Source: a virus. Taken from it: a stretch of DNA of 23,822 nt. A program made the translations under genes and the position numbers. The notes beneath the pieces were generated by a model. That model ran no database searches and was not told the DNA's origin. It saw only the letters and a list, made by a program, of their open reading frames with translations. Below are positions 9,663-23,146 of this stretch, in pieces. The stretch covers positions 1 through 23,822 of the IMG/VR virus record IMGVR_UViG_3300042465_000917. One strand, written 5' to 3'. How positions within the stretch are numbered: position 1 is the stretch's first letter; the number at the start of each line of letters is the position of its first letter.

Positions 9663-10325
9663 TCAACCTCCAAACATTTGCTTCAAGTGTACATACAACT
9701 CGTGCGCCTGATACACAGTCATATCTGACAAAATATCCTGCGGTGTTTTATTACGCACAAGCTTTGTGAGAAATGCGCGTCTGTCTGTTTCAACAGTCCC
9801 GCCCATGGAAAAAGCAGCGGAGGCATCCAATGCAGCTTGGCTAGGCTCAGCCTCCAGCTTCTCGCGTAGCAACGCACCGATGCCTGTCACGGCTTTCTTT
9901 TCGTACTTGCGCTTGGGTGTGGCGTCTTTATCTTTGTTCATAGCTTTAAGTGTTTTGATCGGGCGGTACTCGTCAATGTCTGCGTAGTGCAGGCCGTTGG
10001 TTTCGTGAACCATTTTGTTACGGCGCATCTGCGCAATAAGGCTAGAGACTGAGCCGCCCCCAAACCCTTCGTGCTCAAGGTCTTGAATGATCTCCTTGCG
10101 TGTGGAGCCGGGGTTGTTCTTGATGTAGTCGAAGGTCACGCGTGACACATTGTTGGTGACGTTGAAAGTTTTCTTGGCCATGGGAATTCCTTGAGAAGGT
10201 GTAGATAAAGAGTTGTTGATAGTAGTGTTGACAGTAGGAGGAGGGGGAACTTGTTCCCCGTCGTCATCCCACTCCTGTAAGGTGCGGGTTAGTGCGTTTT
10301 TAAGGGCAGTTTGAATGTCAGGCAT
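9663..10325 (-). CDS. Winged-helix-like protein carrying a palindrome in its N-terminal linker
   Basis: This is a 220-residue protein. Residues 61-115 form a probable winged helix-turn-helix: FDYIKNNPGSTRKEIIQDLE, then SVSSLIAQMRRNKMV and a wing-like HETNGLHYAD. A Lys-rich linker (130-145) and a helical C-terminus follow. DNA binding is likely; the target is unknown. The first 48 residues are low complexity (VPPPPTVNTTINNSLST) and contain GEQVP (23-27), encoded by one copy of the dispersed palindrome. The ATG at 10325 has AGGAGG 8 nt upstream. An internal ATG at 10181 with AGGA before it could make a shorter form that starts at the folded domain. Confidence 0.72.
   Translation of the reverse strand: MPDIQTALKNALTRTLQEWDDDGEQVPPPPTVNTTINNSLSTPSQGIPMAKKTFNVTNNVSRVTFDYIKNNPGSTRKEIIQDLEHEGFGGGSVSSLIAQMRRNKMVHETNGLHYADIDEYRPIKTLKAMNKDKDATPKRKYEKKAVTGIGALLREKLEAEPSQAALDASAAFSMGGTVETDRRAFLTKLVRNKTPQDILSDMTVYQAHELYVHLKQMFGG
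10244..10259. repeat. Dispersed 16-bp palindrome inside the winged-helix gene
   Basis: GGGGAAC-TT-GTTCCCC on the plus strand; encodes GEQVP at residues 23-27 of the 9663-10325 product, within a low-complexity linker before a Pro run. It is the leftmost copy in the window. Confidence 0.85.
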
Positions 10326-10536
10326 TTGAGGTTCCTCCTGTTATAAGCATGACGATAACGATGAAAGCAATAAGCCCAATGGACTGTACTGTTGCGAGCG
10401 TAAGCTCGGACATACCCTGCTTGTCGCCAAGCAGTACGCCTTGTATCCATTCGGACTCAGGCGTACATTCAGGGGGTGGTGGGGTATAGGTCAGGCCGAT
10501 CTTGACTTTACCCGTGTTGTAGGGTGGGTGGTTCAA
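10318..10536 (-). CDS. Small single-pass membrane protein (TTG start)
   Basis: This is a 72-residue protein. Residues about 48-67 (ATVQSIGLIAFIVIVMLITG) are a clear transmembrane helix close to the C-terminus, while the first 45 residues are Pro-rich and soluble (YTPPPPECTPESEW). The TTG at 10536 is the only start with a ribosome site, and it is a strong one: AAGGAG six bases upstream. An internal ATG at residue 42 would leave little but the membrane helix. It directly follows another tiny membrane protein gene (10583-10675). Function unknown; membrane tethering, superinfection exclusion or a lysis role are all possible. Confidence 0.62.
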   Translation of the reverse strand: MNHPPYNTGKVKIGLTYTPPPPECTPESEWIQGVLLGDKQGMSELTLATVQSIGLIAFIVIVMLITGGTSNA

Positions 10537-10582
10537 TATTTTCTCCTTGAGTGAATATTATTTGTCCAAGAGTAGACAGAAG

Positions 10583-10675
10583 TCAATAGGGTCTCCAGTA
10601 TAAAAGATCCAGTATTAGTACAATCACCGATAACAAAAGTACTACTCTTTCGAATTTCTCCCAGCGTGTCATCAT
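10583..10675 (-). CDS. 30-residue membrane microprotein
   Basis: This very short gene has strong local support. AAAGGAG lies before the ATG at 10675, and that ATG overlaps the TGA of the preceding gene (ATGA), the same coupling used throughout this operon. The 30-residue product has a short basic amphipathic start (MMTRWEKFER), a hydrophobic stretch VVLLLSVIVLILDLLY long enough to span a membrane, and the end WRPY. A second ATG at 10672 would remove one residue. It is followed by a second membrane protein gene 46 nt downstream. Function unknown. Confidence 0.6.
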   Translation of the reverse strand: MMTRWEKFERVVLLLSVIVLILDLLYWRPY

Positions 10676-11469
10676 TGTTGTTTCTCCTTTGTTTGTGTAA
10701 CTGTGTAGCTGTGATAAATATAGCCAAACTCAATCTTGCCCACTAGGGCTTCGGGTATCCAAGTTCTGCGTCCATCCTTGTACTGCCTGAAATGTCCGCG
10801 TCTCTTGTGTTGTCGTGGGCTGTTACGCCCATTGCCTGTCGCCACGATGTCGTGGTCTTCAGGTCTAGCAGTCACGTCGATAACTTTCCACTCGAACAAG
10901 GGGTGCTTGCCTTTGCGGATACGCTTACTGTTGGATGGCGATGCGATGGGTTTGTACACACGGGTTCTCTCGTGCATATCCATAGCCTTACGCATGTACT
11001 CGGCATAAAGATGGCTGACCATTGAACTCCATATTTGAAACACATAACGCTCGGGAGTAAGCCCTTCGTCGGAAGGCGCCATCCCTCTGTCTCTCAAGGC
11101 TTGTATATAGCTTTCGGCTGTCTCGTTTGGGGGCATGGAAACAAACTGCTCTTTTCCTGTACTGCGTATCGCCCCTGCGTCGCCGCTCCTGCCACGCAAG
11201 CGAACAATCAATTCACCGACATTGCGCTCAATAGTTATGCCGAGCGGATGAACAGCCGTGGTTGGTTGCCGAACTATGCCCATCTGCTCAAAGGGTAGCA
11301 TCAGATCAGCGGGGTCAGAGGTAAACAAATCAGGTATAGCATCCATAACCTTATCGAATTTAGCGTCTATCATGGAATCAAAATTCCCAAGATCAACCCA
11401 TGTGTAGTCCATTGGATCGCCTTCGGTATAAACGTCCTCTTTGACCACCTTCATTATGTTAGGCGTCAT
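10672..11469 (-). CDS. Conserved phage protein with basic C-terminal motif
   Basis: This is a 265-residue protein of unknown function. The N-terminal 180 residues look globular and mainly helical. The C-terminal part contains SPRQHKRRGHFRQYKDGRRT followed by WIPEALVG, a His/Arg-rich motif (P-R-x-H-x-R-R-G-H-x-R) that I recall at the C-terminus of many phage hypothetical proteins and which probably contacts nucleic acid. The ATG at 11469 has AAGGAG about 8 nt upstream and overlaps the previous gene by 11 nt. The stop is coupled to the microprotein gene. Confidence 0.68.
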   Translation of the reverse strand: MTPNIMKVVKEDVYTEGDPMDYTWVDLGNFDSMIDAKFDKVMDAIPDLFTSDPADLMLPFEQMGIVRQPTTAVHPLGITIERNVGELIVRLRGRSGDAGAIRSTGKEQFVSMPPNETAESYIQALRDRGMAPSDEGLTPERYVFQIWSSMVSHLYAEYMRKAMDMHERTRVYKPIASPSNSKRIRKGKHPLFEWKVIDVTARPEDHDIVATGNGRNSPRQHKRRGHFRQYKDGRRTWIPEALVGKIEFGYIYHSYTVTQTKEKQQ

Positions 11470-11761
11470 CTTCGTGCTCCTTGTCTACATAGGCAGGATT
11501 GCCTGTTTGATCTCGATACTCTTTGGCATCTTTCTCAGCGTCATGCTCGTTGTCAAACACACCAAGTACTGTGTGGTTGTGGTTTCTAACTACGTATTGC
11601 ACTTTGTCAATCAACTCGGTGTCGTATGTCTGACCTTCCCCGACACGGGCTTTGGTAATGTCAAACTCATCGAACGCCTTGCTTGCAGCATCGGCACTGC
11701 TGTCGGCTTCGACCTCTACTGTCTGCCAGTAGGACATAACTACTTGTACTCTGTACTTCAT
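11459..11761 (-). CDS. Hypothetical small acidic protein
   Basis: This 100-residue protein begins MKYRVQVVMSYWQTVEVEAD and ends in the acidic tail KEHEDDA; it is not recognised. The frame is open further upstream, but ATG 11761 with AAAGGAG seven bases before it is clearly the start; the longer frame would run through a terminator hairpin and the end of the amidotransferase gene. It is the first gene after that terminator. Confidence 0.7.
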   Translation of the reverse strand: MKYRVQVVMSYWQTVEVEADSSADAASKAFDEFDITKARVGEGQTYDTELIDKVQYVVRNHNHTVLGVFDNEHDAEKDAKEYRDQTGNPAYVDKEHEDDA

Positions 11762-11779
11762 CTTCTCTCTCCTTTGGTT

Positions 11780-11805
11780 TAAAAATGCGGGGGTGTTACC
11801 CCCGC
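11780..11805 (-). terminator. Intrinsic terminator after the amidotransferase gene
   Basis: Read on the minus strand, an 8-bp GC-rich stem GCGGGGGT/ACCCCCGC with a 3-nt loop (11787-11805) is followed by A and five T. It lies 7 nt after the amidotransferase stop codon. The next gene starts only 18 nt after the T-run, so either termination is partial or antitermination operates. Confidence 0.75.
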
Positions 11806-11811
11806 TACACA

Positions 11812-12918
11812 TCAGGTCAACAGTGCAGGCAATGTTGACTTGAACGATACAGGCTTGCGTACATCCCATTGCAGGTAGTAACACATGACCTCGGCAATTA
11901 GGCTGACTGCACCAGACGACTTGGTCGCCGTGCTGATAAGACCAGACGCATCGCCCTCTATAAACATATCGTAGATACCCTGCTCGGCAAAGCACAAGTC
12001 ATCACGATGTGTGTAACTAAGTGGCTCGGGTGCGAGCAGGTGCAGTACAGTAGTCAACGTGTAAGCAGGCATCTGGTCAAGCCATATCTCCATCGTCTCT
12101 ACGTCTGCCTCAGTAAGCGCAGTAGCAAGATCATCAAGCTCAGGGCGAATGAAACCATCTTCGTCATCGGGAAAGTCAAACGCTGTCTCGTCATAGTTGG
12201 CGCTGTGTGCGCTGACACTGCGGGGATAGATGCCAAAGCTTGCGTTGTAGTCATACATCTCGTCGTACTCGTCATCCATGTAGCTACCATAGGCGCTGGC
12301 GTACTTGTATGACTTGAGTGTCGCACTCTTGTAGCTAGGGATCAGGCGTGATGGAGTCCAAGCATAGGTATTGCTAAACCACATATCGTCGTGCTCGATA
12401 CCCTGCTCGAAGTTGACGTGTTGCATACGACCCTCGCCATTCATGAACACGAAGCGATTGTTGCCGATGAACTCCTCCATCATAGACACGAAGCCCGTGT
12501 CATACACAAGGTCAGGTGCAGACGACACAGCGGTATGCAAGTAGTCCTTGATGAAGTGCCATGTATCTGACTTGGTCTTGTCAGCAGCATTGCCTGTATG
12601 CAGTACGCCGTTGTGCATCATGGCGATGAAGCCAGGAATCACATCATAGGGATGGCAGTTGAGCATGTCGGTCTTGCCGTGTGTAGTCCAGCGGAAGTGA
12701 ATGGCAATCTCACGATCGTCTTGCGGTAGGCGCTGAATGAATGCAGTAGCATCGCCAATGTTCTTGGGTAAAGTCTTGGTGACCTTGAGTCCCTTGGCTG
12801 AACCATACATAAAGCCAATGCCGTCAGGATTGGCTGTAAAGATGTCGCTCAGTAGCCCGTGTGTATTGAGCAAGGTTGAACGAACTTTGGCAGACTGACC
12901 AGTAATAATAAGACACAT
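11812..12918 (-). CDS. Class II glutamine amidotransferase (Ntn hydrolase)
   Basis: This is a 368-residue protein. Residues 1-200 match the class II glutaminase domain: Cys2 becomes the N-terminal nucleophile after Met removal (MCLII), FRWTTHG (75-81) matches the TRWATHG glutamine-binding loop, NCHPYD (87-92) matches NAHPH, and MMHNGVL (101-107) supplies the oxyanion Asn103-Gly104. Such domains release ammonia from glutamine or act as related amidohydrolases. The C-terminal 170 residues are acidic and Tyr-rich and are not a known synthetase partner such as the asparagine synthetase, PRPP or sugar-isomerase domains. It lies directly downstream of the amidoligase-like gene, suggesting a joint pathway. 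ATG 12918 has AAGGAA upstream. Confidence 0.87.
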   Translation of the reverse strand: MCLIITGQSAKVRSTLLNTHGLLSDIFTANPDGIGFMYGSAKGLKVTKTLPKNIGDATAFIQRLPQDDREIAIHFRWTTHGKTDMLNCHPYDVIPGFIAMMHNGVLHTGNAADKTKSDTWHFIKDYLHTAVSSAPDLVYDTGFVSMMEEFIGNNRFVFMNGEGRMQHVNFEQGIEHDDMWFSNTYAWTPSRLIPSYKSATLKSYKYASAYGSYMDDEYDEMYDYNASFGIYPRSVSAHSANYDETAFDFPDDEDGFIRPELDDLATALTEADVETMEIWLDQMPAYTLTTVLHLLAPEPLSYTHRDDLCFAEQGIYDMFIEGDASGLISTATKSSGAVSLIAEVMCYYLQWDVRKPVSFKSTLPALLT

Positions 12919-12936
12919 AATAAATTTCCTTGATGT

Positions 12937-12960
12937 AAAAGAATGGGGAGCAAGCTCCCC
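12937..12960 (-). terminator. Terminator-like hairpin, covarying copy of the dispersed palindrome
   Basis: GGGGAGC-AA-GCTCCCC on the plus strand (12945-12960). Relative to the seven exact family copies it carries paired changes (A to G and T to C) that keep the 7-bp stem. On the minus strand it is followed by ATTCTTTT, 17 nt after the amidoligase stop. The amidotransferase start codon is less than 20 nt beyond the T-run, so it may attenuate rather than end transcription. Confidence 0.65.
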
Positions 12961-12977
12961 GTTTGGTTGTTGATGAA

Positions 12978-15068
12978 TTAAACAGGCTGTACTTCAGACA
13001 CTCTGTATGAAGACTGCGCAAGCGAAGCAGCAAACTCCTCGTTCATAAGAACCCACAGTTGACCGATACGCATATAGACAACATCGCTACTGCTGATGGT
13101 TTCTAAGTCGCCCCCGTATGGGAAGTACACATACTCAGAGCCTGCGTATGTAGCGAAGCGGAAGTACAGACTGTGACGATTGACCCACGTTCTCAACGTC
13201 TCGGCCTCGTTGTCGTAGGGTATGTGCACTGGGTAGTCTCTGTCATGCCTATCCTCCGTATCCGCAGGTTGCCAAGGCGCAGGAGGCACAGCGTCAGTGC
13301 AAGTGTCCATCGCTGGCGCTATGACTGTCGGTGTGGATGTGTGTACATTGCGTACGCCATACCACTTAGTCAGCGCAGGGTACTGACCCGCCACAGTCTT
13401 GAGCCACTTGACGAACGATGTGCCGTTGAGATCACGCCACGATGCGACACGACAGAACATGACAGACGCATGAGTGAACTCGATCTGTGCAAGCAGACGT
13501 TCCTTCTTGAGCGAAGCACGGAAGATGCGAAGCTCGACAGTGTTGTACTTGCCGTTGTAGCTGTTGTCCATGCTAAGACCAAGACGCTGTGCCTCACGAC
13601 CACCAAGGTTGCACATATTGACCATGCGATAGCGCTCACCAGACTTACCCTTGACCGCCTTCTTGGGGTTGGTAAGGATAGACTGATGCTCTGCTGCACA
13701 GTAGCTACGGGCTTGGTCATCGACAGATGGGTGACGACCTGCAATCTTGCGAATGAAGTCAACGTTGCCAGAGCTATTGATGAACATCAAGAACTTACCG
13801 AGCGTCAACTGCGTGAAGGCACGAGAGTCAATGTGTACATGCATACCGCACTTGCCTGTGTTCCATGCACGATAGGCTGGGTCGATAATCCAGTTCTTGA
13901 ACTTGTCGATGTGAAGCGCAAGACCTTGCGGTGAAGTCACGACTTCGAAGCCATTGTGTGGAAGCGAGCCGTCACTCTTGATGATGCAGTAGGCGTTACC
14001 TAAACGGCTACGCACAGACTCAGCAGACTCGTTGGTATCGTGATCGCCAGACGTCATCTCAAGCTCGATGCCCATCGTGAACTCACCGAAGTGAGAAGAC
14101 GTGATGCCAGAGGGGTAGTCAAGAACACGAAGCACATTGGTAGAGTACGACATGATTGGCTGATCGCTGTCGTCATCGTCGTCGTCATCGTCATCGTCAT
14201 CGGTACGCTCATACGAGTAGTACAAGTCATCACTCTCGCTGTAGTACGCATCGTCACGAGGCCAGTACTCGTCTTGATCCTCGACATACACAGCGTTATC
14301 GTCGTAGCACGAGTCGCACCATGTATCGTTACGCACGCTGTGTGTGTTGTCGCTGTCCTCATAGTGACCGCAGTCGCAGTGCGTAATGTTCATGTCACCC
14401 ATCGCATCAATCACAGTGAACGCACTATCGATATGGCTTTCGGCCTCGCTGTAACGACCAGACAACTCGAAGAACTTAGAGCGAAGCTCATCGTTGGTGA
14501 TGGACTCATCGCCTGCCTTGGCACGAGCAACGAGCCTGCCGAAGTCTAAGTAATGCTTGCGAGCAATCTTGAAGTAGTCGTTGCTGTGATCGTAGTACCA
14601 AGAACCCTTGAACCTAGCGCAAGGCACAGGCGGTGACTGGTTTACATTCGGGTCATGCTTCTTGGCATAAGACTCGACGATTGTGTCGACACGAGTAGAC
14701 AACAGGTTACGAGCAAACCGTGGCAAATCCGCAGTGCTCGTGGGTGTCAACAACCTGCGCATCATCTGATGCATATCGTAGCGATCACGGCTCTCGACAA
14801 CAGCCTCTTTGTAAGTCATAGCACGAGGTGCAAAAGCACCCTCACCCTTGACACGATAGCGTGAGGTACGAGTCCACGCACATAGGTTCTCTACTGTGAT
14901 CAGATCGAGAGGTGCAATACCCGCATCCATGTGCAGCACATCCGACCAGACAAGACGCCTACGGGATGCGTTGTACACCATATACCGCTTGTTGAGTGAC
15001 ACGATGTAGATCACCTGATCTAGTGAGTCAACAAAATCTTCCATCACGAATCTAGTTATTTGAAACAT
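12978..15068 (-). CDS. Amidoligase-like protein (glutamine-synthetase-fold COOH-NH2 ligase) with zinc ribbon
   Basis: This is a 696-residue protein. Residues about 325-540 carry the pattern of the Amidoligase_2-type family: GIELE (333-337), SDGSLPHNGFEVVTSP (365-380), CGMHVHID (407-414) and NTVELRIFRAS (509-519), the expected metal/ATP-binding Glu, Asp and His residues. Such enzymes form amide bonds between a carboxylate and an amine. The N-terminal 220 residues are unassigned. A CDC...CDSC zinc ribbon (231-254) and Tyr/Asp-rich repeats follow, then eleven consecutive Asp (290-300). The substrate could be host peptide, peptidoglycan or protein; this is inference. Start ATG 15068 has AAGGAG 6 nt upstream. 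The amidotransferase gene follows immediately. Confidence 0.78.
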   Translation of the reverse strand: MFQITRFVMEDFVDSLDQVIYIVSLNKRYMVYNASRRRLVWSDVLHMDAGIAPLDLITVENLCAWTRTSRYRVKGEGAFAPRAMTYKEAVVESRDRYDMHQMMRRLLTPTSTADLPRFARNLLSTRVDTIVESYAKKHDPNVNQSPPVPCARFKGSWYYDHSNDYFKIARKHYLDFGRLVARAKAGDESITNDELRSKFFELSGRYSEAESHIDSAFTVIDAMGDMNITHCDCGHYEDSDNTHSVRNDTWCDSCYDDNAVYVEDQDEYWPRDDAYYSESDDLYYSYERTDDDDDDDDDDDSDQPIMSYSTNVLRVLDYPSGITSSHFGEFTMGIELEMTSGDHDTNESAESVRSRLGNAYCIIKSDGSLPHNGFEVVTSPQGLALHIDKFKNWIIDPAYRAWNTGKCGMHVHIDSRAFTQLTLGKFLMFINSSGNVDFIRKIAGRHPSVDDQARSYCAAEHQSILTNPKKAVKGKSGERYRMVNMCNLGGREAQRLGLSMDNSYNGKYNTVELRIFRASLKKERLLAQIEFTHASVMFCRVASWRDLNGTSFVKWLKTVAGQYPALTKWYGVRNVHTSTPTVIAPAMDTCTDAVPPAPWQPADTEDRHDRDYPVHIPYDNEAETLRTWVNRHSLYFRFATYAGSEYVYFPYGGDLETISSSDVVYMRIGQLWVLMNEEFAASLAQSSYRVSEVQPV

Positions 15069-15088
15069 ACGTTTCTCCTTGATGTATA

Positions 15089-15110
15089 AAAAATGGGGAA
15101 CAAGTTCCCC
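15089..15110 (-). terminator. Terminator-like hairpin (dispersed palindrome copy)
   Basis: GGGGAAC-AA-GTTCCCC on the plus strand (15095-15110). On the minus strand the 7-bp stem is followed by ATTTTTTAT, 19 nt after the stop of the 15130-15381 gene. The amidoligase start is only about 20 nt further on. The surrounding ~38 bp closely repeat the junction at 12927-12963. Confidence 0.68.
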
Positions 15111-15129
15111 GTTGTACTAACACACGATC

Positions 15130-15381
15130 TCAACAGACCGCAGGAACCTCCACTTCATCTATTGGGTTAAAGAAATTGATCGTGAAGTCACGATGCTTAC
15201 CTAAGATGCGCTCACCTGCCTCGAAGATATAGAACAGGTTGTGTCTGTCTATCAGGCTGTCGAGCACAGCGTCACGCATAGAGTCGGATAACCCTTGCGG
15301 CATGACTAAACAACGATGCTCGAATGGTTTGTTGTCATCGTTCCAATACCCCTCGATACAAATTAACTTAGCTGTACTCAT
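15130..15381 (-). CDS. Hypothetical protein
   Basis: This 83-residue protein begins MSTAKLICIEGYWNDDNKPF and is not recognised. It is a predicted alpha/beta mix without membrane segments. The start at ATG 15381 is set by AAGGAG 7 nt upstream; the open frame continues further upstream but overlaps the previous gene completely. The ATG overlaps the TGA of that gene (ATGA). Confidence 0.68.
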   Translation of the reverse strand: MSTAKLICIEGYWNDDNKPFEHRCLVMPQGLSDSMRDAVLDSLIDRHNLFYIFEAGERILGKHRDFTINFFNPIDEVEVPAVC

Positions 15382-15566
15382 ACTGTTTCTCCTTCTGGTT
15401 GATAATCTTCGCAACGATCGGCTACTGTCCGTAGATGTGCATCCATCGCTTGGTTCTCCTCTGTGCTCATAGACACACGCTGAACTAACTGCCCTTTGAA
15501 ACAAGCAAGCCCTACGTTCCAATTGCTTGTGTGCGTTGAGAGTGCGCAGTTCCTACATGATTTCAT
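15378..15566 (-). CDS. Small cysteine-containing protein, possible zinc binder
   Basis: This is a 62-residue protein. C4 and C7 (CRNC), C22 (ACFKG) and C52 (RCEDYQP) form a C-x2-C-x14-C-x29-C set that resembles small phage proteins with one zinc site ending in a C-x2-Y-x-P motif. Function unknown. The ATG at 15566 has AGGAG 6 nt upstream and overlaps the preceding TAA by one base (TAATG). Confidence 0.66.
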   Translation of the reverse strand: MKSCRNCALSTHTSNWNVGLACFKGQLVQRVSMSTEENQAMDAHLRTVADRCEDYQPEGETV

Positions 15567-15790
15567 TACTTACTCCTGTTGTTGATTGCTTCTACTACCT
15601 CATCAGCACACGCACGCCACGATTCCTCGCTTATGAATGTGTTGTCCTTTGACCAAGGCGGTGACACTTTGGTTTGTTCTGCGTACTTAGCAATAGCCTC
15701 GATGATGAACGCTTGCATTAGTACGCCCTGCTGTGAGTGCGTCATCAGCCCGTTGATAAGCTCTACGTTCGTTACGTGTTTAGATTTCAT
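15566..15790 (-). CDS. Hypothetical protein
   Basis: This 74-residue helical protein begins MKSKHVTNVELINGLMTHSQ and is not recognised. ATG 15790 is chosen because AAGGAG lies 7 nt upstream; the in-frame extension to 15853 has no ribosome site and would overlap the previous gene by more than 70 nt. It overlaps that gene's end by 11 nt. Confidence 0.68.
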   Translation of the reverse strand: MKSKHVTNVELINGLMTHSQQGVLMQAFIIEAIAKYAEQTKVSPPWSKDNTFISEESWRACADEVVEAINNRSK

Positions 15791-16073
15791 AGTTTTCTCC
15801 TTGGTTAAATGGTTTGGCTTGCATTGCTTCTTGCAGGCAGTCGATGAACTCAATCTCGTTATAACTAACGTCTAAGCCGTCAAGTATTCTGTCTAAGTAG
15901 TTATGCTCAGGCGAACCTCTGTACTCGTCTGGCGTAAGCCAGCGCTTAAAGTCCCAACACCAAGTCCAATCTCTGCTGGCTGTGAAGTAGAACTTGAGCG
16001 TGAACCGCCCAATACGGATGTCCGCCTCTGGTGCGTTTTGTATCCACGCACGAGCTTGTTCTTCATATGTCAT
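15780..16073 (-). CDS. Hypothetical protein
   Basis: This 97-residue protein is rich in aromatic residues (FYFTASRDWTWCWDFKRWL) with an acidic C-terminal half; it is not recognised. ATG 16073 has AAGGAG 7 nt upstream. It is the first gene after a short non-coding spacer that contains one copy of the dispersed palindrome. Confidence 0.68.
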   Translation of the reverse strand: MTYEEQARAWIQNAPEADIRIGRFTLKFYFTASRDWTWCWDFKRWLTPDEYRGSPEHNYLDRILDGLDVSYNEIEFIDCLQEAMQAKPFNQGENYEI

Positions 16074-16142
16074 TTGCTTTCTCCTTAAAAATACAAGGCA
16101 CTAACGGGATGGTGCTCGGCGTAGCCCACACGCCGAACGCTT

Positions 16143-16158
16143 GGGGAACTTGTTCCCC
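16143..16158. repeat. Dispersed 16-bp palindrome, intergenic copy
   Basis: GGGGAAC-TT-GTTCCCC on the plus strand, 28 nt after the stop of the 16187-16894 gene in the transcript direction. No T-run follows on the minus strand, so it is not a standard intrinsic terminator. Confidence 0.85.
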
Positions 16159-16186
16159 GAAAGATGTTGATAGTTGATGATAGTAG

Positions 16187-16894
16187 TCAGTCCTCCCCTA
16201 AGCTGAGTTTTGTCCATGTGGCAGGCACAGCTTCGTTCTTATCAAGCGTGTCAATAATCTTGAGGGCTTTGCGCATCTGCGCTAGTTTGGCTGTGCGTGC
16301 GTCTGTTGGTTTGATGGTGGCTTGGCGTTCGAGGGTTTCCATCTCCTTCCTTGTCTTGGTCAATAATCTCACCTTGGCTGTTTCATGTTGGTGGGGCAGC
16401 ATCGTGCGTTGGAAGGGTGTCTTGCGTTTGCCCCTAGGTACAACAGGCACGGCATCGAACAGCAAAGAGATTTTGTCCTTGACCCGTGCGGGTATCCAGT
16501 CAGTCCAATGCTCGCCATCGTTGGGTAGCCCCTTGTCACGGGCTATCTGTATGGGTGTGTGGTCAAGAGCCTTGTATGGGGCGTCTAGCATGGCTACCAG
16601 CTTCTCCATGATGCGTATGTACTCGCTGAACGCTAGCTTGCGTTCATTCTGGGGAACAAGTTCCCCGCCGTATCTCATGCCCACACGGGCGTTGTTGATC
16701 TCGTAGCGCAGGGGTGCTAATACCTTGTCCCATTCGGCTTTGCGTTGGGTGCGTGTGATGCGTGAGACACGTAGCGTTTCTTTCAACGCAGAGACTTCCA
16801 TTTTTATTCTTTCGATCTCGGCTGGGTGTAGCTTGCGCTCGGTTAGGCGGTTGTGTAGGTCGTTGGCTGAGAGTTTGAGGTAGGTTTCGTACAT
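16187..16894 (-). CDS. Hypothetical basic helical protein with embedded palindrome
   Basis: This is a 235-residue, strongly charged, Lys/Arg-rich, mostly helical protein; no domain is recognised. Two helical segments (about 15-60 and 190-225) look coiled-coil-like. Residues 77-81 (GELVP) are encoded by one copy of the dispersed palindrome (16651-16666), in a probable loop between YGG and QNE. ATG 16894 is preferred; GGAG lies about 11 nt upstream, a rather long spacing. The in-frame extension to 16939 would run across the GGACA/TGTCC inverted repeat and has no better ribosome site. Confidence 0.62.
   Translation of the reverse strand: MYETYLKLSANDLHNRLTERKLHPAEIERIKMEVSALKETLRVSRITRTQRKAEWDKVLAPLRYEINNARVGMRYGGELVPQNERKLAFSEYIRIMEKLVAMLDAPYKALDHTPIQIARDKGLPNDGEHWTDWIPARVKDKISLLFDAVPVVPRGKRKTPFQRTMLPHQHETAKVRLLTKTRKEMETLERQATIKPTDARTAKLAQMRKALKIIDTLDKNEAVPATWTKLSLGED
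16651..16666. repeat. Dispersed 16-bp palindrome, copy inside a gene
   Basis: GGGGAAC-AA-GTTCCCC on the plus strand; on the coding strand it reads GGG GAA CTT GTT CCC, giving Gly-Glu-Leu-Val-Pro without disturbing the frame. Confidence 0.85.
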
Positions 16895-17258
16895 GAGATT
16901 ATTTACTCCAAAAGTGAGGGTCGGACAAATGTCCAACACTACAGGGCTGTGACTAAGATGCGTGTAGGTTGTGAAGCCGCACCAGTACTAGCTTAGCACG
17001 AAAAGTGTGCGATGTATCTATCTTATTTCTGAACGGCTATAGCCAAACAAAAAAAGAAAGTGTCTCAAAGAAAAAGAATGAGCACCCCCTAATACATACA
17101 TCTATATATATAAATATATATTAAATAGATAGATAGATAGGACAGTTTTTGCGGAACGCTAGCGTGGATGCGGCTTGCGGGGTTACACGGAACTTAGTTC
17201 ACGGGTTGTAGTGTCGGACATTTGGCTGGGTCTTGTTTTTTGCCTCAATAATCTCGCA
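16895..17258. other. Gene-free, A+T-rich, palindrome-dense region; candidate origin or control region
   Basis: No convincing gene lies in these 364 bases. They hold an inverted repeat GGACA-AA-TGTCC (16923-16934), perfect palindromes GGCTATAGCC (17035-17044) and ACGCTAGCGT (17156-17165), the inverted repeat GAACT-T-AGTTC (17190-17200), an almost pure A+T tract (17102-17127) running into four ATAG units (17125-17140), and a purine-rich tract at 17041-17090. A further 12-bp palindrome, GCACTATAGTGC (17256-17267), straddles the right edge. An A+T tract, short tandem repeats and clustered palindromes are typical of replication origins or multi-operator regions, but no known initiator box is recognised and no clear sigma70 promoter was found. 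Confidence 0.5.
17125..17140. repeat. Tetranucleotide repeat (ATAG)4
   Basis: Four perfect ATAG units abut the right end of the A+T tract. Short iterated units beside an A+T tract can be initiator sites or simply slippage products. Confidence 0.85.
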
Positions 17259-17507
17259 CTATAGTGCAGATCGGGGAACTTGTTCCCCAAATGGTAGGTT
17301 TAACTGCTTAGGTTGTGTCTCAAGCCAGTCAAAGAAGGCGTCATCTGTGCTGAATACACGCCCTCGTTCAGCTAGGTTCTTGCTAAAGACATAGACAACG
17401 TAGTTGCTGCCCCCATTGGGGTAATGGTATTGCAGGTGATACTTACTTGCGCCCATTTGTACTACGCCTACTTCTTTGACTCTGTACTGATTGAATAGTT
17501 GGTACAT
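17259..17507 (-). CDS. Small protein with clamp-binding-like peptide and palindrome-encoded tail
   Basis: This is an 82-residue protein starting MYQLFNQYRVKEVGVVQMGA; no domain is recognised. Residues 68-73, QLNLPF, fit the six-residue form of the bacterial sliding-clamp-binding motif (QLxLxF/L, compare QLSLPL in Hda). The last nine residues (GEQVPRSAL) begin exactly at a palindrome copy (17273-17288), so the protein may once have ended near the motif. ATG 17507 has AAGGAG 9 nt upstream; the longer frame to 17558 lacks a ribosome site. Clamp binding is inferred from the motif only. Confidence 0.66.
   Translation of the reverse strand: MYQLFNQYRVKEVGVVQMGASKYHLQYHYPNGGSNYVVYVFSKNLAERGRVFSTDDAFFDWLETQPKQLNLPFGEQVPRSAL
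17273..17288. repeat. Dispersed 16-bp palindrome at the end of a gene
   Basis: GGGGAAC-TT-GTTCCCC on the plus strand. The coding strand reads GGG GAA CAA GTT CCC (GEQVP), directly after the QLNLPF codons and four codons before the stop. Confidence 0.85.
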
Positions 17508-17589
17508 GATTATTGACTCCTTGAGATTATTGATTGGACAGGAAAAGAAACACCGCAAGAGACTCGCCCTTGCGGTGATCTGGATAATC

Positions 17590-17605
17590 GGGGAACAAGT
17601 TCCCC
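17590..17605. repeat. Dispersed 16-bp palindrome, intergenic copy
   Basis: GGGGAAC-AA-GTTCCCC on the plus strand, 8 nt after the stop of the 17614-18060 gene. Only a short GATTATCC follows on the minus strand, so it is at best a weak terminator. Confidence 0.85.
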
Positions 17606-17613
17606 AAGATTAT

Positions 17614-18060
17614 TTACAATGGCAATGTTGCCAAGTAAGCACGCAACAACTCGACTTGCTTCTTGAGTGTGTCAGCAGGGAAAGATGCCAAGGCATTGTC
17701 ACAAGCCTTCACCTGCTCAGATGTGAACTTGACCACAGTCTTCTTGCCCGATGTGCGACCAGTCCTACTGATGTGGTCACGGAACTTTGCACCACCAGTA
17801 TTGACAGCCTTCTCCTGACTGGCTGTGCGTTTTGTGCGAGTCTTGCTACAAATAATCTCGGCTTCCTTCTGTGTGCAATCTAGGCGACCGATCACATAGT
17901 TCAGCACCCAGTCAGATCGCCACTCGCTTTGCTTACCTGCATCGAGAGTCAGATACTCTTTGTGCCATGCAAGGCTCGCCTCTAGTGTGATGCGATCAGT
18001 TGCACCTACACCTCTAGCGAACTGTTGATACGTTACTGTGATTGCGTTTGCTTTAGTCAT
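17614..18060 (-). CDS. Hypothetical basic protein, first gene of the leftward module
   Basis: This 148-residue protein begins MTKANAITVTYQQFARGVGA; no domain is recognised. It is helical with a basic middle (CSKTRTKRTASQ, HISRTGRTSGKKTVVKF) that could bind nucleic acid. ATG 18060 has AAGGAG 7 nt upstream. The open frame extends to 18231, but that part reads through the palindrome in another phase and lacks a ribosome site. As the gene closest to the divergent region it is probably among the first transcribed. Confidence 0.68.
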   Translation of the reverse strand: MTKANAITVTYQQFARGVGATDRITLEASLAWHKEYLTLDAGKQSEWRSDWVLNYVIGRLDCTQKEAEIICSKTRTKRTASQEKAVNTGGAKFRDHISRTGRTSGKKTVVKFTSEQVKACDNALASFPADTLKKQVELLRAYLATLPL

Positions 18061-18093
18061 TTGATTCTCCTTGAATTGACTATTGGTTAAAGC

Positions 18094-18109
18094 GGGGAAC
18101 AAGTTCCCC
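18094..18109. repeat. Dispersed 16-bp palindrome upstream of the leftward module
   Basis: GGGGAAC-AA-GTTCCCC on the plus strand, 34 nt upstream of the 18060 start codon. It is the rightmost copy; in a leftward transcript it would lie in the 5' leader. Confidence 0.85.
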
Positions 18110-18131
18110 ACATCGGCTAGGCTTGTCCCAA

Positions 18132-18178
18132 CCGATACCTCTATGTTACGTATGGGGGTCATTTTGGGGCTGTATCGG
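18132..18178. promoter_or_regulatory. Possible operator: inverted repeat CCGATAC/GTATCGG
   Basis: Two 7-bp inverted half-sites (18132-18138 and 18172-18178) are separated by 33 bp, and a third related ATCGG lies at 18112. They lie between the two transcription units. A regulator such as the HTH protein at 1497-1790 could bind here, but nothing in the sequence links them. Confidence 0.3.
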
Positions 18179-20650: not shown

Positions 20651-23146
20651 ATGGCAACGAACATCGACAAAGCGCTGTACCAACAACCTATGGGCATTGA
20701 CGCGCTGGGTGAACAGGAGTCTCCTCTTGAGATTGAGATTGTTGATCCCGAAGAAGTCACCATCGGCATGGACGGGATAGAGATTACTCTCACGCCCGGA
20801 GAAGACGACGATGAAGAAGGTTTTGACGATAACTTGGCCGAGTACATAAAAGACGGTGTCCTGCAGTCGCTGGCTGGTGACTTGGTGTCTGACATTGACA
20901 ATGACAAAAATGGCCGCAAGGATTGGGAGAAGACGTACGTTGATGGTCTGAAGCTGTTGGGTCTGCAGATAGAAGAACGCACAGAACCTTGGAACGGTGC
21001 ATGTGGTGTGTTCCACCCCATGATTACAGAAGCTGTTGTGCGCTTTCAAGCTGAGACAATCACTGAGACGTTCCCAGCCCAAGGGCCAGTGCGCAGCAAA
21101 CTCATCGGTAAAGAAACGCCAGAGATGAAAGAGATTGCGGCTAACATCGAAGAGGACATGAACTACGAGTTGACGGAAGTCATGACGGAGTACCGCGCTG
21201 AACACGAGCGCATGCTCTGGTCACTACCGGCCACAGGCTCAGCGTTTAAGAAGGTGTACTACGATCCCAATTTGGGACGTCAGGTGTCGATGTTTATTCC
21301 TGCGGAAGATATGTATCTGCCGTACGGTACAACGGATTTGGATACTTGCTACCGCATCACGCACGTCATGCGCAAGACCAAGAACGAGATCGTCAAGCTC
21401 CAACAAGTGGGCTTCTACGTTGACATTGAGTTGCCTGACTCACCCAAAGATTTGACAGACATTCAGAAAGCCAAGGACAAAGAGACTGGCTTTAGTGACT
21501 TAAACGACGACCGCTACACACTATACGAGTGCCACGTTGACTTGAACCTTGAAGGTTACGAAGACAAAGACGACGCAGACGAAGAGACCGGCATCATGTT
21601 GCCGTACGTTGTTACGTTGATTAAAGGCTCTAACGACATTCTGTCAATCCGCCGCAACTGGAAGGAAGAAGATGACCTCAGACTCAAGCGCCAGCACTTT
21701 GTGCACTACCAATATATTCCGGGTTTTGGAGCTTACGGCTTCGGGCTTTTCCACCTTATCGGAGGCTTTGCTAAATCCGCTACATCCCTCATGCGCCAGC
21801 TTGTCGATGCAGGAACACTCAGCAATCTGCCCGGCGGACTTAAGACACGGGGTCTGCGCATCAAAGGAGATGACACACCAATCGCACCCGGAGAGTTCCG
21901 TGATGTAGACGTTGGCTCGGGCACAATTCGTGACAACATCTTGCCTCTGCCGTACAAGGAGCCAAGCGCTACGCTGTTTAACTTGATGCAGACCATCGTT
22001 GATGAAGGCAGGCGTTTTGCCGCGACTGCTGACATGAAGGTGTCTGACATGTCTGCGCAGGCTCCTGTGGGAACCACACTTGCGCTGTTAGAGCGCCAGC
22101 TTAAGGTGATGACGGCTGTTCAGGCCCGTGTGCACTTTGCGCTGAAGCAAGAGTTCAAGCTCTTGAAGAACATCATTCGCGACTACACAGACCCAGACTA
22201 CAAGTACACGCCTGAGTACGGCACACGTAAAGCTAAGAAAGCTGACTACGACTTGGTGGACATCATCCCCGTGTCAGACCCCAATGCGGCCACCATGTCT
22301 CAGCGCGTTATCCAGTACCAAGCTGTGATCCAGATGGCGCAGATGGCTCCGGATATTTACAACTTGCCAGAATTGCACAGGGGGATGCTCAATGTCTTAG
22401 GCATCAAGAACGCTGAAAAACTTGTGCCAATTGAAGACGACCAGAAACCGACAGACCCTGTGCAGGAGAATCAAAACGCACTCAAGGGCAAGCCGATTAA
22501 AGCGTTCTTACACCAAGACCATCAGTCACATATCCAAGTGCACATGATGCTACTCCAAGACCCAATGATGCAACAGTTTATTGGCCAGAACCCACAGGCT
22601 CCCAAGATCATGGGCGCAATTACGGCGCACATTGCAGAGCACGTTGGTTACCAAATGCGCCAGCAGATCGAGCAGCAGTTGGGCATGCCCCTGCCTCCCG
22701 AAGACGAGAAGTTGCCACCGCAGATCGAGATTGCCTTGTCGGGCATGATGGCTCAAGCAGCGCAACAGGTGATGATGCAAAACCAAGCCAAGGCTGCACA
22801 ACAGCAGGCACAACAACAGATGCAAGACCCCGTCATGCAGTTGCAGATGCAGGAACTCCAACTCAAAGGTCAGGAACTTGAGTTAAAGAAACAAAAGATC
22901 ATGATGGACGCTGCTGCCAAGGCCGACGCACAGGCTCTGAAAGAGCAAGAAGTCAGCGGCAAACTGGAACTAGAGGCTCTTCGCACAGGTGCGCAAATAA
23001 AAGAGAGCGAATTCAAGCAACAGTTTGAACAAGAACGTGCCGGCCTCCAAATGGGCGCCGACATCGCAAAGAGTAAAGCCCAGATGGATTTACAAGCGCG
23101 TACTGCTGCGCTCTCAAACAGTAGAAACCAAGGTTCTAGAAAATGA
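20651..23146 (+). CDS. Portal protein
   Basis: This is an 831-residue protein. Position right after the large terminase, the acidic N-terminus and segments such as GVFHPMITEAVVRFQAETIT, HERMLWSLPATGSAFKKVYY and MYLPYG identify a portal of the kind found in short-tailed and some siphovirus-like phages. The dodecameric ring is the DNA entry channel. It is long for a portal. The last 130 or so residues are Gln/Lys/Ala-rich and fully helical (AKAAQQQAQQQMQD...), which would suit a coiled barrel like that of P22 gp1. The start ATG has AGGA about 8 nt upstream and the stop overlaps the next start (ATGA). Confidence 0.88.
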   Translation: MATNIDKALYQQPMGIDALGEQESPLEIEIVDPEEVTIGMDGIEITLTPGEDDDEEGFDDNLAEYIKDGVLQSLAGDLVSDIDNDKNGRKDWEKTYVDGLKLLGLQIEERTEPWNGACGVFHPMITEAVVRFQAETITETFPAQGPVRSKLIGKETPEMKEIAANIEEDMNYELTEVMTEYRAEHERMLWSLPATGSAFKKVYYDPNLGRQVSMFIPAEDMYLPYGTTDLDTCYRITHVMRKTKNEIVKLQQVGFYVDIELPDSPKDLTDIQKAKDKETGFSDLNDDRYTLYECHVDLNLEGYEDKDDADEETGIMLPYVVTLIKGSNDILSIRRNWKEEDDLRLKRQHFVHYQYIPGFGAYGFGLFHLIGGFAKSATSLMRQLVDAGTLSNLPGGLKTRGLRIKGDDTPIAPGEFRDVDVGSGTIRDNILPLPYKEPSATLFNLMQTIVDEGRRFAATADMKVSDMSAQAPVGTTLALLERQLKVMTAVQARVHFALKQEFKLLKNIIRDYTDPDYKYTPEYGTRKAKKADYDLVDIIPVSDPNAATMSQRVIQYQAVIQMAQMAPDIYNLPELHRGMLNVLGIKNAEKLVPIEDDQKPTDPVQENQNALKGKPIKAFLHQDHQSHIQVHMMLLQDPMMQQFIGQNPQAPKIMGAITAHIAEHVGYQMRQQIEQQLGMPLPPEDEKLPPQIEIALSGMMAQAAQQVMMQNQAKAAQQQAQQQMQDPVMQLQMQELQLKGQELELKKQKIMMDAAAKADAQALKEQEVSGKLELEALRTGAQIKESEFKQQFEQERAGLQMGADIAKSKAQMDLQARTAALSNSRNQGSRK

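Follow-up and report, generated by a model that had tools for sequence, protein, structure and literature searches.

Dispersed palindromes vary together with a small protein encoded in the same operon of uncultured phages

The window analysed here is the whole 23,822-base stretch of DNA of a virus, IMG/VR record IMGVR_UViG_3300042465_000917, and along its leftward operon are dispersed eight short palindromes, S1 to S8. We consider it likely that these repeats are DNA operators of g1, a putative site-specific DNA-binding protein of 148 amino acids encoded by the first gene of that operon (17614..18060, minus strand), which lies between S1 and S2. Palindromes of the same family occupy the same places in related uncultured phages, are largely uniform within a genome, and both co-occur and co-vary with g1. 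Because sites and protein change together across these phages, we suggest that palindromes and g1 probably form a switch acting along the phage's early genes.

An initial annotation of the window had listed seven exact copies of a 16-bp palindrome (at 10244, 15095, 16143, 16651, 17273, 17590 and 18094) and an eighth at 12945 in which both arms are changed, and we found every one of them at these positions. Allowing up to 3 mismatches the window holds 8 copies, compared with a mean of 0.14 and a maximum of 1 in 100 dinucleotide-preserving shuffles, and a chance origin was rejected on these counts. There is no further copy elsewhere in the window, the nearest match being at 22255 with 4 mismatches in 18, so the copies are indeed confined to one 8-kb segment, as annotated. 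S1 (18094..18109, GGGGAACAAGTTCCCC) lies in the g1 leader and ends 33 nucleotides (nt) upstream of the g1 ATG, and S2 (17590..17605) is found 8 nt past the g1 stop codon, ahead of a predicted intrinsic terminator. S3 (17273..17288) overlaps the final codons of g2 (17259-17507, minus strand) in frame and S4 (16651..16666) is in frame within g3 (16187-16894, minus strand), +228 nt from the g3 start, with S5 (16143..16158) following 28 nt past the g3 stop codon. S6 (15095..15110) and S7 (12945..12960, GGGGAGCAAGCTCCCC, the copy altered in both arms) each end 26 nt upstream of an ATG, that of g8 and that of g9 respectively, and on the sense strand a T-tract follows each of them; S8 (10244..10259) lies within a conserved N-terminal coding extension upstream of g12. 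Four of the eight copies (17590, 16143, 15095 and 12945) are thus placed 8-28 nt past a stop codon of the minus-strand operon, in keeping with what had been remarked of several copies, and three (18094, 15095 and 12945) end 26-33 nt ahead of the next gene's start codon.

Relatives were gathered by scans with the 16-mer, with the amidoligase-like g8 and with g1. All are metagenomic contigs, often short, and the records are not independent of one another; near-duplicate rows were dropped (L010, L052, L093, L076 and Wrc, which is the window itself, together with L080 and L089 for the parsimony, class-sharing and mismatch counts). Among loci encoding a g8 relative, 39 of 40 carry at least one GGGGA-x-TCCCC palindrome. 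The exception, L084, is a distant relative with g8, g9 and polA that has no palindrome of this family in 11.5 kb, the g1 region lying off the contig. Related genomes with the same loci and unrelated or no hairpins at random density, which the initial annotation had named as evidence against its proposal, were not seen apart from L084, which has none. The consensus across relatives is (Y)GGGGAxx-N(2-3)-xxTCCCC(R), with a total element length of 14-17 bp between phages, and the variable letters fall into the classes ACwwGT, GATTTC, GACTTTC, AAnnTT, C-NN(N)-G and CAnnnTG plus a 15-bp A class. As in the window, the copies in 14 related records are confined, among the matches listed, to one segment of ∼8-10 kb. 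Records that span the segment have 7-8 copies and those covering part of it fewer; single stray matches outside it occur in three of the records listed, and in record G007 the repeat segment runs over the contig ends.

Nine fixed places in the operon carry palindromes in these phages, not every genome having every site, and the places are conserved even between genomes at 53-60% protein identity. Counting in relatives from the first base of the element, the S1 place is 47-52 nt ahead of the g1 start in 20 AC/GA rows and 35-40 nt ahead in AA and C phages, S2 is 3-8 nt past the g1 stop, S3 is within or directly past the end of g2, and S5 is 16-61 nt past the g3 stop. S6 is found 41-51 nt upstream of g8 and S7 40-53 nt upstream of g9, a ninth site present in some phages (S7b) is 12-16 nt past the last matched g9 codon, and S8 is 60-78 nt upstream of the MAKKT start of g12. 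Wherever the g3 allele is 75-100% identical and the contig extends far enough (22 rows), S4 stands in frame at +228, and its codons vary with class (GELVPQ, GEKVSP and others) while the frame is kept. It is missing from 12 rows with 51-56% identical g3 alleles; the L037 contig stops short of it, and L083, with a 33% identical g3, has a palindrome at +243. The sequence flanking each site remains site-specific. In several C- and AA-type phages (L063, L066, L073 and L059) other palindromes, differing from phage to phage, lie just ahead of S5, past the g3 stop; they include GGGAATTCCCATGGGAATTCCC-like, GTTTCACGTGAAAC and GGATTCCACGTGGATTCC-like sequences, the second of which resembles parS.

The 16-mer by itself is not specific to this group. 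Among 45 viral stretches with the 16-mer, 11 have at least two copies, 3 further single-copy stretches (L007, L025 and L038) are relatives, and the remaining 31 matched none of the tested window genes by tblastn. Bacterial genomes with the 16-mer have mostly one copy per contig among the matches listed. Fifteen of 80 listed contigs belong to one proteobacterial metagenome-assembled genome (WQTY01, Cu122P3bin5), and a Methanoculleus contig (L164, MPOY01000260) has four copies in 1.9 kb; these are probably unrelated repeat families of the same letters.

Across 33 genomes with at least 3 sites, and with seven site classes distinguished, two sites of the same genome shared a class in 0.896 of 450 pairs, while the same site in two genomes shared a class in 0.164 of 1896 pairs, much the figure for different sites in two genomes (0.159). 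Since sites agree within a genome but not between genomes, class belongs mainly to the genome and not to the site. A second class is present in 10 of the 33 genomes, as mosaicism would predict. Uniformity of this kind could also arise by concerted evolution, through gene conversion or short-homology recombination and with no factor acting in trans, g1 correlating with site class only by lying between two copies; these phages are mosaics, and shuffling has reached g1 too. That account would, however, need 16-bp tracts that leave unlike flanks at up to nine places, and it does not lead one to expect either a g1 residue that separates site classes or the match of spacing to g1 subfamilies described below, and we regard it as quite improbable.

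The same distribution bears on the suggestion of the initial annotation that the repeat is a phage-borne mobile hairpin of the REP type. RAYT systems consist of a gene flanked by two copies together with dispersed copies, and here too a gene lies between two copies, further copies are scattered and the repeat types are specific to the gene, so that g1 might be taken for the mobilising gene and the other sites for its dispersed offspring. The sites nevertheless keep their places between distant phages (S4 at the same codon in 22 rows), Y1 transposase (PF01797) was found in none of 9 related, possibly incomplete records, and the g1 proteins of L051 and L058 contain no histidine at all and therefore no HUH motif, of which histidine is a part. 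Mobility thus deserves almost no credence as an explanation.

As to which gene accompanies the sites, the evidence points to g1. We examined 91 contigs new to the analysis that were found by g1 similarity alone, using g1 protein and profile queries; these are separate records that include near-identical groups (e.g. L307-L311 and L336-L338). With a relaxed site pattern (GGGA..TCCC, 4-8 between), a site falls between -10 and +130 nt of the g1 stop in every one of the 91, as against 631 of 11,864 random positions drawn from these contigs (5.3%) with a site in either of two windows of the same sizes. A site is also present upstream of g1 in 75 of the 91, a figure that is partly due to the mechanical choice of start codons. 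Among the longer new loci, with at least 2.5 kb past g1, 36 of 39 have a g3 relative. In 65 of 80 genomes the majority class of the distant sites agreed with that of the closest g1 relative under 97% score similarity (shuffled mean 10.8, maximum 24), and 49 of 80 still agreed when the closest relative under 70% was taken.

Linkage within one segment can mimic such co-variation. We also compared the site classes with other genes of the operon. In Mantel comparisons, where pairs too distant to align were dropped and 231 of 313 kept, distances between the distal sites S6-S8 correlated with distances of g1, g3 and g5 (Spearman 0.31-0.33, equalled or exceeded in no more than 2 of 500 permutations), and no correlation was seen for g7, g8, g9 and g12, the last with 10 genomes only. 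For S3-S8 the coefficients were 0.47 for whole g1, 0.42 for its N-terminal part alone and 0.44 for g3. Changes of class were also counted by parsimony on trees built by a quick method. The class of S6 (n=20) required 12 changes on the tree of g8, which is ∼40 nt away (shuffled mean 12.5), compared with 8 on the tree of g1, ∼2.5 kb away, which is below all 100 shuffles; the class of S7 (n=12) required 7 changes on the g9 tree (mean 7.6) compared with 4 on the g1 tree, again below all 100 shuffles. For S5 (n=23) the g3 tree required 9 changes and the g1 tree 7. When the majority class apart from S1-S4 was scored in 64 genomes, for which the class CA16 was added, the g1 tree required 10-11 changes (minimum 7), that of the last 42 residues of g1 15, and that of g3 15, against a shuffled mean of 43; the corresponding numbers within the AC/GA group of 25 genomes were 5-6, 7 and 8. 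The null results for g8, g9 and g12, which are nearer to S6-S8 than g1 is, speak against linkage alone.

The g1 slot of other phages holds a protein of 135-156 amino acids with a similar layout and 11-90% identity to the window copy. One alignment column (T88 of the window g1, within a predicted helix at 80-97) separates 7 AC-type from 11 GA16-type proteins, the former having T or C and the latter A, G or S, and other GA-type or unlabelled copies also have A, G or S there. We take T88 as a candidate specificity position; few independent lineages are involved, and the column is a pointer and not proof. Element length also follows g1, as would be expected if the protein sets the spacing: GA16 and GA17 phages differ in the N-terminal parts of g1, and the g1 of L070, which has the 15-bp A class, is closer (49%) to the g1 of a C-type phage than AA16 g1s are to it (29-44%). 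The C-terminal parts of g1 have been exchanged independently of the rest, a few alternative forms of the last ∼40 residues (VPKQLVSNIVSEIIDAGLTKAQF.. or VKFT.EQ..ACDNALASF..) being interchanged irrespective of the N-terminal part; a small phage gene has in this way been shuffled in modules. Neither Pfam nor PHROG gave a match for the window g1, and its relatives gave only sub-threshold matches. Two AlphaFold models of g1 were of middling quality (pLDDT 75 and 73), and fold searches with them were without significant result, Foldseek against the PDB giving best E values of 1.2 and 1.3 and VIA best Z scores of 3.3 and 6.4; the best BFVD match is an uncharacterised protein from an uncultured phage (E 1.2e-3). 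No DNA-binding family stood out among the structure matches, a result that excludes none. The g1 proteins of L058 and of the window, used as queries, had no match at E 0.01 in 50,697 records of cultured phages.

Whether the repeats act as DNA or as RNA deserves separate consideration, since all sites are transcribed in one operon. They could be hairpins in early mRNA, recognised by g1 acting on RNA in the way lambda N acts at boxB, or cut or protected by host RNases, with the co-variation reflecting co-evolution of protein and RNA. The two arms are complementary at position 6 in 356 of 362 distinct elements and at position 7 in 257 of 282 (these and the other mismatch and flank counts refer to distinct elements, not to independent events). 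The initial annotation had read the paired change in S7 as evidence that the hairpin itself is selected, but complementary arms are predicted equally by an RNA hairpin and by a dimer reading a dyad in DNA. Other features are more discriminating. Mismatches between the arms on the sense strand are as often A-C (14) as G-U (12), which favours DNA, since G-U should prevail if an RNA stem were under selection. A pyrimidine before GGGGA and a purine after TCCCC are found in 338 of 347 phage elements, compared with 23 of 93 matches to the same pattern in bacterial contigs. The commonest flank pair is C..A (156 of 361), with Watson-Crick pairs at 128 (168 expected) and U-G at 70, and because these conserved Y/R flanks often cannot pair, the two half-sites seem to be recognised independently. 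The asymmetric centre, for which TT and AA had both been noted in the window, is found in both orientations in other phages too, and at S3, S4, S5, S6 and S8, five of the nine sites, it differs in orientation between phages, so that neither loop sequence nor loop orientation is kept even at one site. A 2-nt loop cannot form in RNA, and the predicted fold is a stem with a 4-nt loop; folding of six stretches was modest (z -0.27 to -2.51 relative to shuffles), and the window had no match in Rfam 15 at gathering scores, for which reason a known Rfam element was rejected. Taken together these features favour double-stranded DNA read by a dimer, and they count against the RNA processing or stability element that had been offered as an alternative.

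The initial annotation had counted only two copies with a T-run, and we likewise find a T-rich tract downstream in the direction of transcription at 2 of the 8 window copies (12945 and 15095); across phages TTTT occurs within 10 nt of 62 of 362 elements. Intrinsic termination was accordingly rejected as the common role of the repeats. S6, S7 and S7b, which often have T-tracts, could in addition terminate transcription by themselves, and an RNA role may apply to a subset of sites, namely S6 and S7 with their T-tract.

Several observations weigh against DNA operators read by g1, and some of them would suit RNA hairpins better. The centre shows a bias in the sense strand (TT 57 versus AA 33; CTT 33 versus AAG 12), which was complete at S1, S2, S7 and S7b in the first set (TT 34 versus AA 0), S1 and S2 centres occurring in both orientations in the wider set of new loci. 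There is an excess of complementarity in the flanks, at position 2 (243 versus 150 expected) and at position 3 (187 versus 128), that would also come from a stem, and S6, S7 and S7b, often followed by a U-rich tract, stand at a fixed distance ahead of start codons. Phages differ in spacing by 1-3 bp, and a single phage sometimes holds more than one spacing, which is unusual for a rigid dimer; g1 has no DNA-binding fold recognised by sequence or structure match. Finally, g3 and g5 also correlate with site class, and for S6 the g3 and g1 trees require the same number of changes (9 each, n=21). As a candidate for the cognate factor g3 is weaker than g1 overall (15 versus 10-11 changes), though equal to it at S6. 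With these points included we still judge an RNA hairpin, whether or not g1 is its partner, to be an improbable explanation of the family as a whole. The third suggestion of the initial annotation, binding sites of a phage protein, is the one supported by the co-occurrence and co-variation with g1, the binding itself being predicted, and its mobile-element and RNA-element suggestions are not supported.

Under the operator hypothesis the sites would be dyad-symmetric double-stranded DNA of the form Y-GGGGAxx-N2/3-xxTCCCC-R, each bound by a g1 dimer. The protein would read the letters xx and the spacing, and a change in its specificity would oblige the sites to follow. Bound g1 would then block or slow RNA polymerase along the operon, and g1 would, as it accumulates, turn down the early genes and its own expression. 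An elongation block is in our view the most likely mode of action because the sites are found inside transcribed sequence and away from anything recognised as promoter-like: sigma-70-like promoter matches number 3 in 9 kb, where shuffling gives 10.3, and none is at a site, though the host promoter consensus may differ. Taken on its own this roadblock step is tentative, and we would put it at somewhat below an even chance. Sites bound by g1 might instead be architectural: for replication, packaging, partition or protection they would bridge or compact the early region, and they would not act on transcription directly. The presence of sites in coding sequence, away from promoter-like sequences, is compatible with such a role, and the authors who described comparable repeats in Cluster O phages argued, in the sections on those repeats, that they serve something other than control of initiation (PMC4351075). 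An architectural function does not, however, require that the sites be confined to one operon, begin in the g1 leader and recur before start codons at a near-fixed distance, and we hold it to be a rather unlikely alternative, one that shares with our proposal the pairing of g1 and operator.

The leftward operon (1-18.1 kb, minus strand) encodes DNA polymerase A, an SNF2-type helicase and a PD-(D/E)XK nuclease, and we infer its early status from gene order and content. The rightward module begins at 18.36 kb and carries the large terminase, which is 44-54% identical to those of its five best listed phages (two Pelagibacter phages, 023Pt_psg01, DSL-LC04 and one Synechococcus phage); megablast of the whole window against the cultured phage collection gave no match. 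Downstream of g1 and S2 is a terminator-like hairpin (17551..17577, minus strand) with 11 pairs and a T-rich tail. Downstream of S6 lies g8 (12978..15068, minus strand), an amidoligase-like gene (PF12224, E 1.1e-5), and downstream of S7 lies g9 (11812..12918, minus strand), which encodes 368 amino acids without a Pfam match and is putatively class II glutamine amidotransferase-like; the two (11812-15068) remain paired in relatives. The g12 frame, with its in-frame upstream extension (9663..10325, minus strand), has a MAKKT start at 10181 and no Pfam match, and by eye we presume it to be a winged-helix protein. It runs on upstream in frame over 10181-10325 with protein-like conservation (QTALKNALTRTLQEWDDD), and this extension contains S8. 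A second conserved inverted repeat (18111-18138, ATCGGTTGGG..CC.AGCCGAT), perhaps a leader hairpin or the site of another protein, lies just upstream of S1 in most of the AC and GA phages compared. Between g3 and g2 there is an A/T-rich stretch (17095-17140) with ATATAT and GATA repeats.

The natural variation among these phages thus names a candidate partner gene, and one candidate residue, for a family of dispersed dyad repeats. There may be up to eight protein-site classes, and up to nine sites per genome, some of them intragenic, appear to follow a change in the specificity of the protein. Should the roadblock be real, it would represent shut-off of early genes at the level of elongation, perhaps independent of lysogeny; a search of 9 related, possibly incomplete records found neither tyrosine integrase nor resolvase families. 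A bolder form of the proposal, which we put forward as doubtful, is that g1 represents a new family of phage DNA-binding proteins, so far from uncultured phages only, that runs a symmetric-site roadblock in the early operon and whose specificity diversifies so fast (eight classes in 64 genomes) that the g1 of one phage would be inactive on the operon of another. If so, it would constitute a heterotypic shut-off or superinfection-exclusion system outside lysogeny, in which the sites, some of them coding, are converted with each change of the protein.

We found no report of these repeats among open-licence PMC papers, none of which contains any of four 16/17-mers of the family. Known systems of dispersed sites nevertheless offer instructive parallels. 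The lambdoid nut/boxB elements have a loop sequence that is fixed in the RNA sense strand, unlike the present sites, whose TT and AA centres both occur and at five sites do so between phages. Cluster A phages (L5, Trixie) have stoperators as part of a system of lysogenic immunity. These 13-bp sites are asymmetric, point for the most part along the direction of transcription, are bound by a monomer and block elongation (PMC6550527), and their motif and repressor vary together between phages (PMC6550527; PMC9283540). The present sites are likewise numerous across transcribed regions, with a motif that varies with a phage protein whose DNA binding is predicted; they differ in being symmetric, with a centre that occurs both ways with a 2:1 sense bias, in having a partner of no known family, and in belonging to phages in which two recombinase families were not found in the 9 records. 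The SPBRE repeats of SP-beta were predicted in silico 24 years before MrpR was shown to bind them; they lie in promoter regions, and MrpR has a tyrosine-recombinase fold and maintains lysogeny (PMC10516654). Here too a dispersed phage repeat was first seen in silico, and the SPBRE binder proved to be a phage-encoded DNA-binding protein, but the present sites are away from promoter-like sequences. Cluster K phages have asymmetric SAS elements immediately upstream of starts, and ESAS elements that are imperfect 17-bp inverted repeats, mostly with 4-13 bp spacers (PMC3203893). Both they and the present sites occur upstream of the start codons of certain gene families and are conserved between genomes, although about half of the sites described here are not start-associated.

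The closest known systems are the Cluster A stoperators and the repeats of Cluster O phages. The latter, TGTTCGG-NNN-CCGAACA, are 17 bp long and present in 34 copies in Corndog, and the authors predicted a dimeric binder for them while naming, as of 2015, neither the binder nor the purpose (PMC4351075). There as here, two inverted arms (7 bp there, 6-7 bp here) enclose a short centre (3 bp and A/T-rich there, 2-3 bp here) whose orientation is not clearly tied to transcription, the copies lie both between and inside genes and mostly at the same positions in relatives, and the sites are predicted to bind a dimer; the Cluster O repeats are also denser in one leftward operon. They differ in their unrelated arms and in their 34 copies spread genome-wide, as against 7-8 in one segment of 8-10 kb, and the sections on the repeats leave the binder unnamed and mention no co-variation (PMC4351075), whereas g1 is a candidate here. 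The present system works like the Cluster O, Cluster A, SPBRE and SAS systems and, by the features tested, is a member of none of them.

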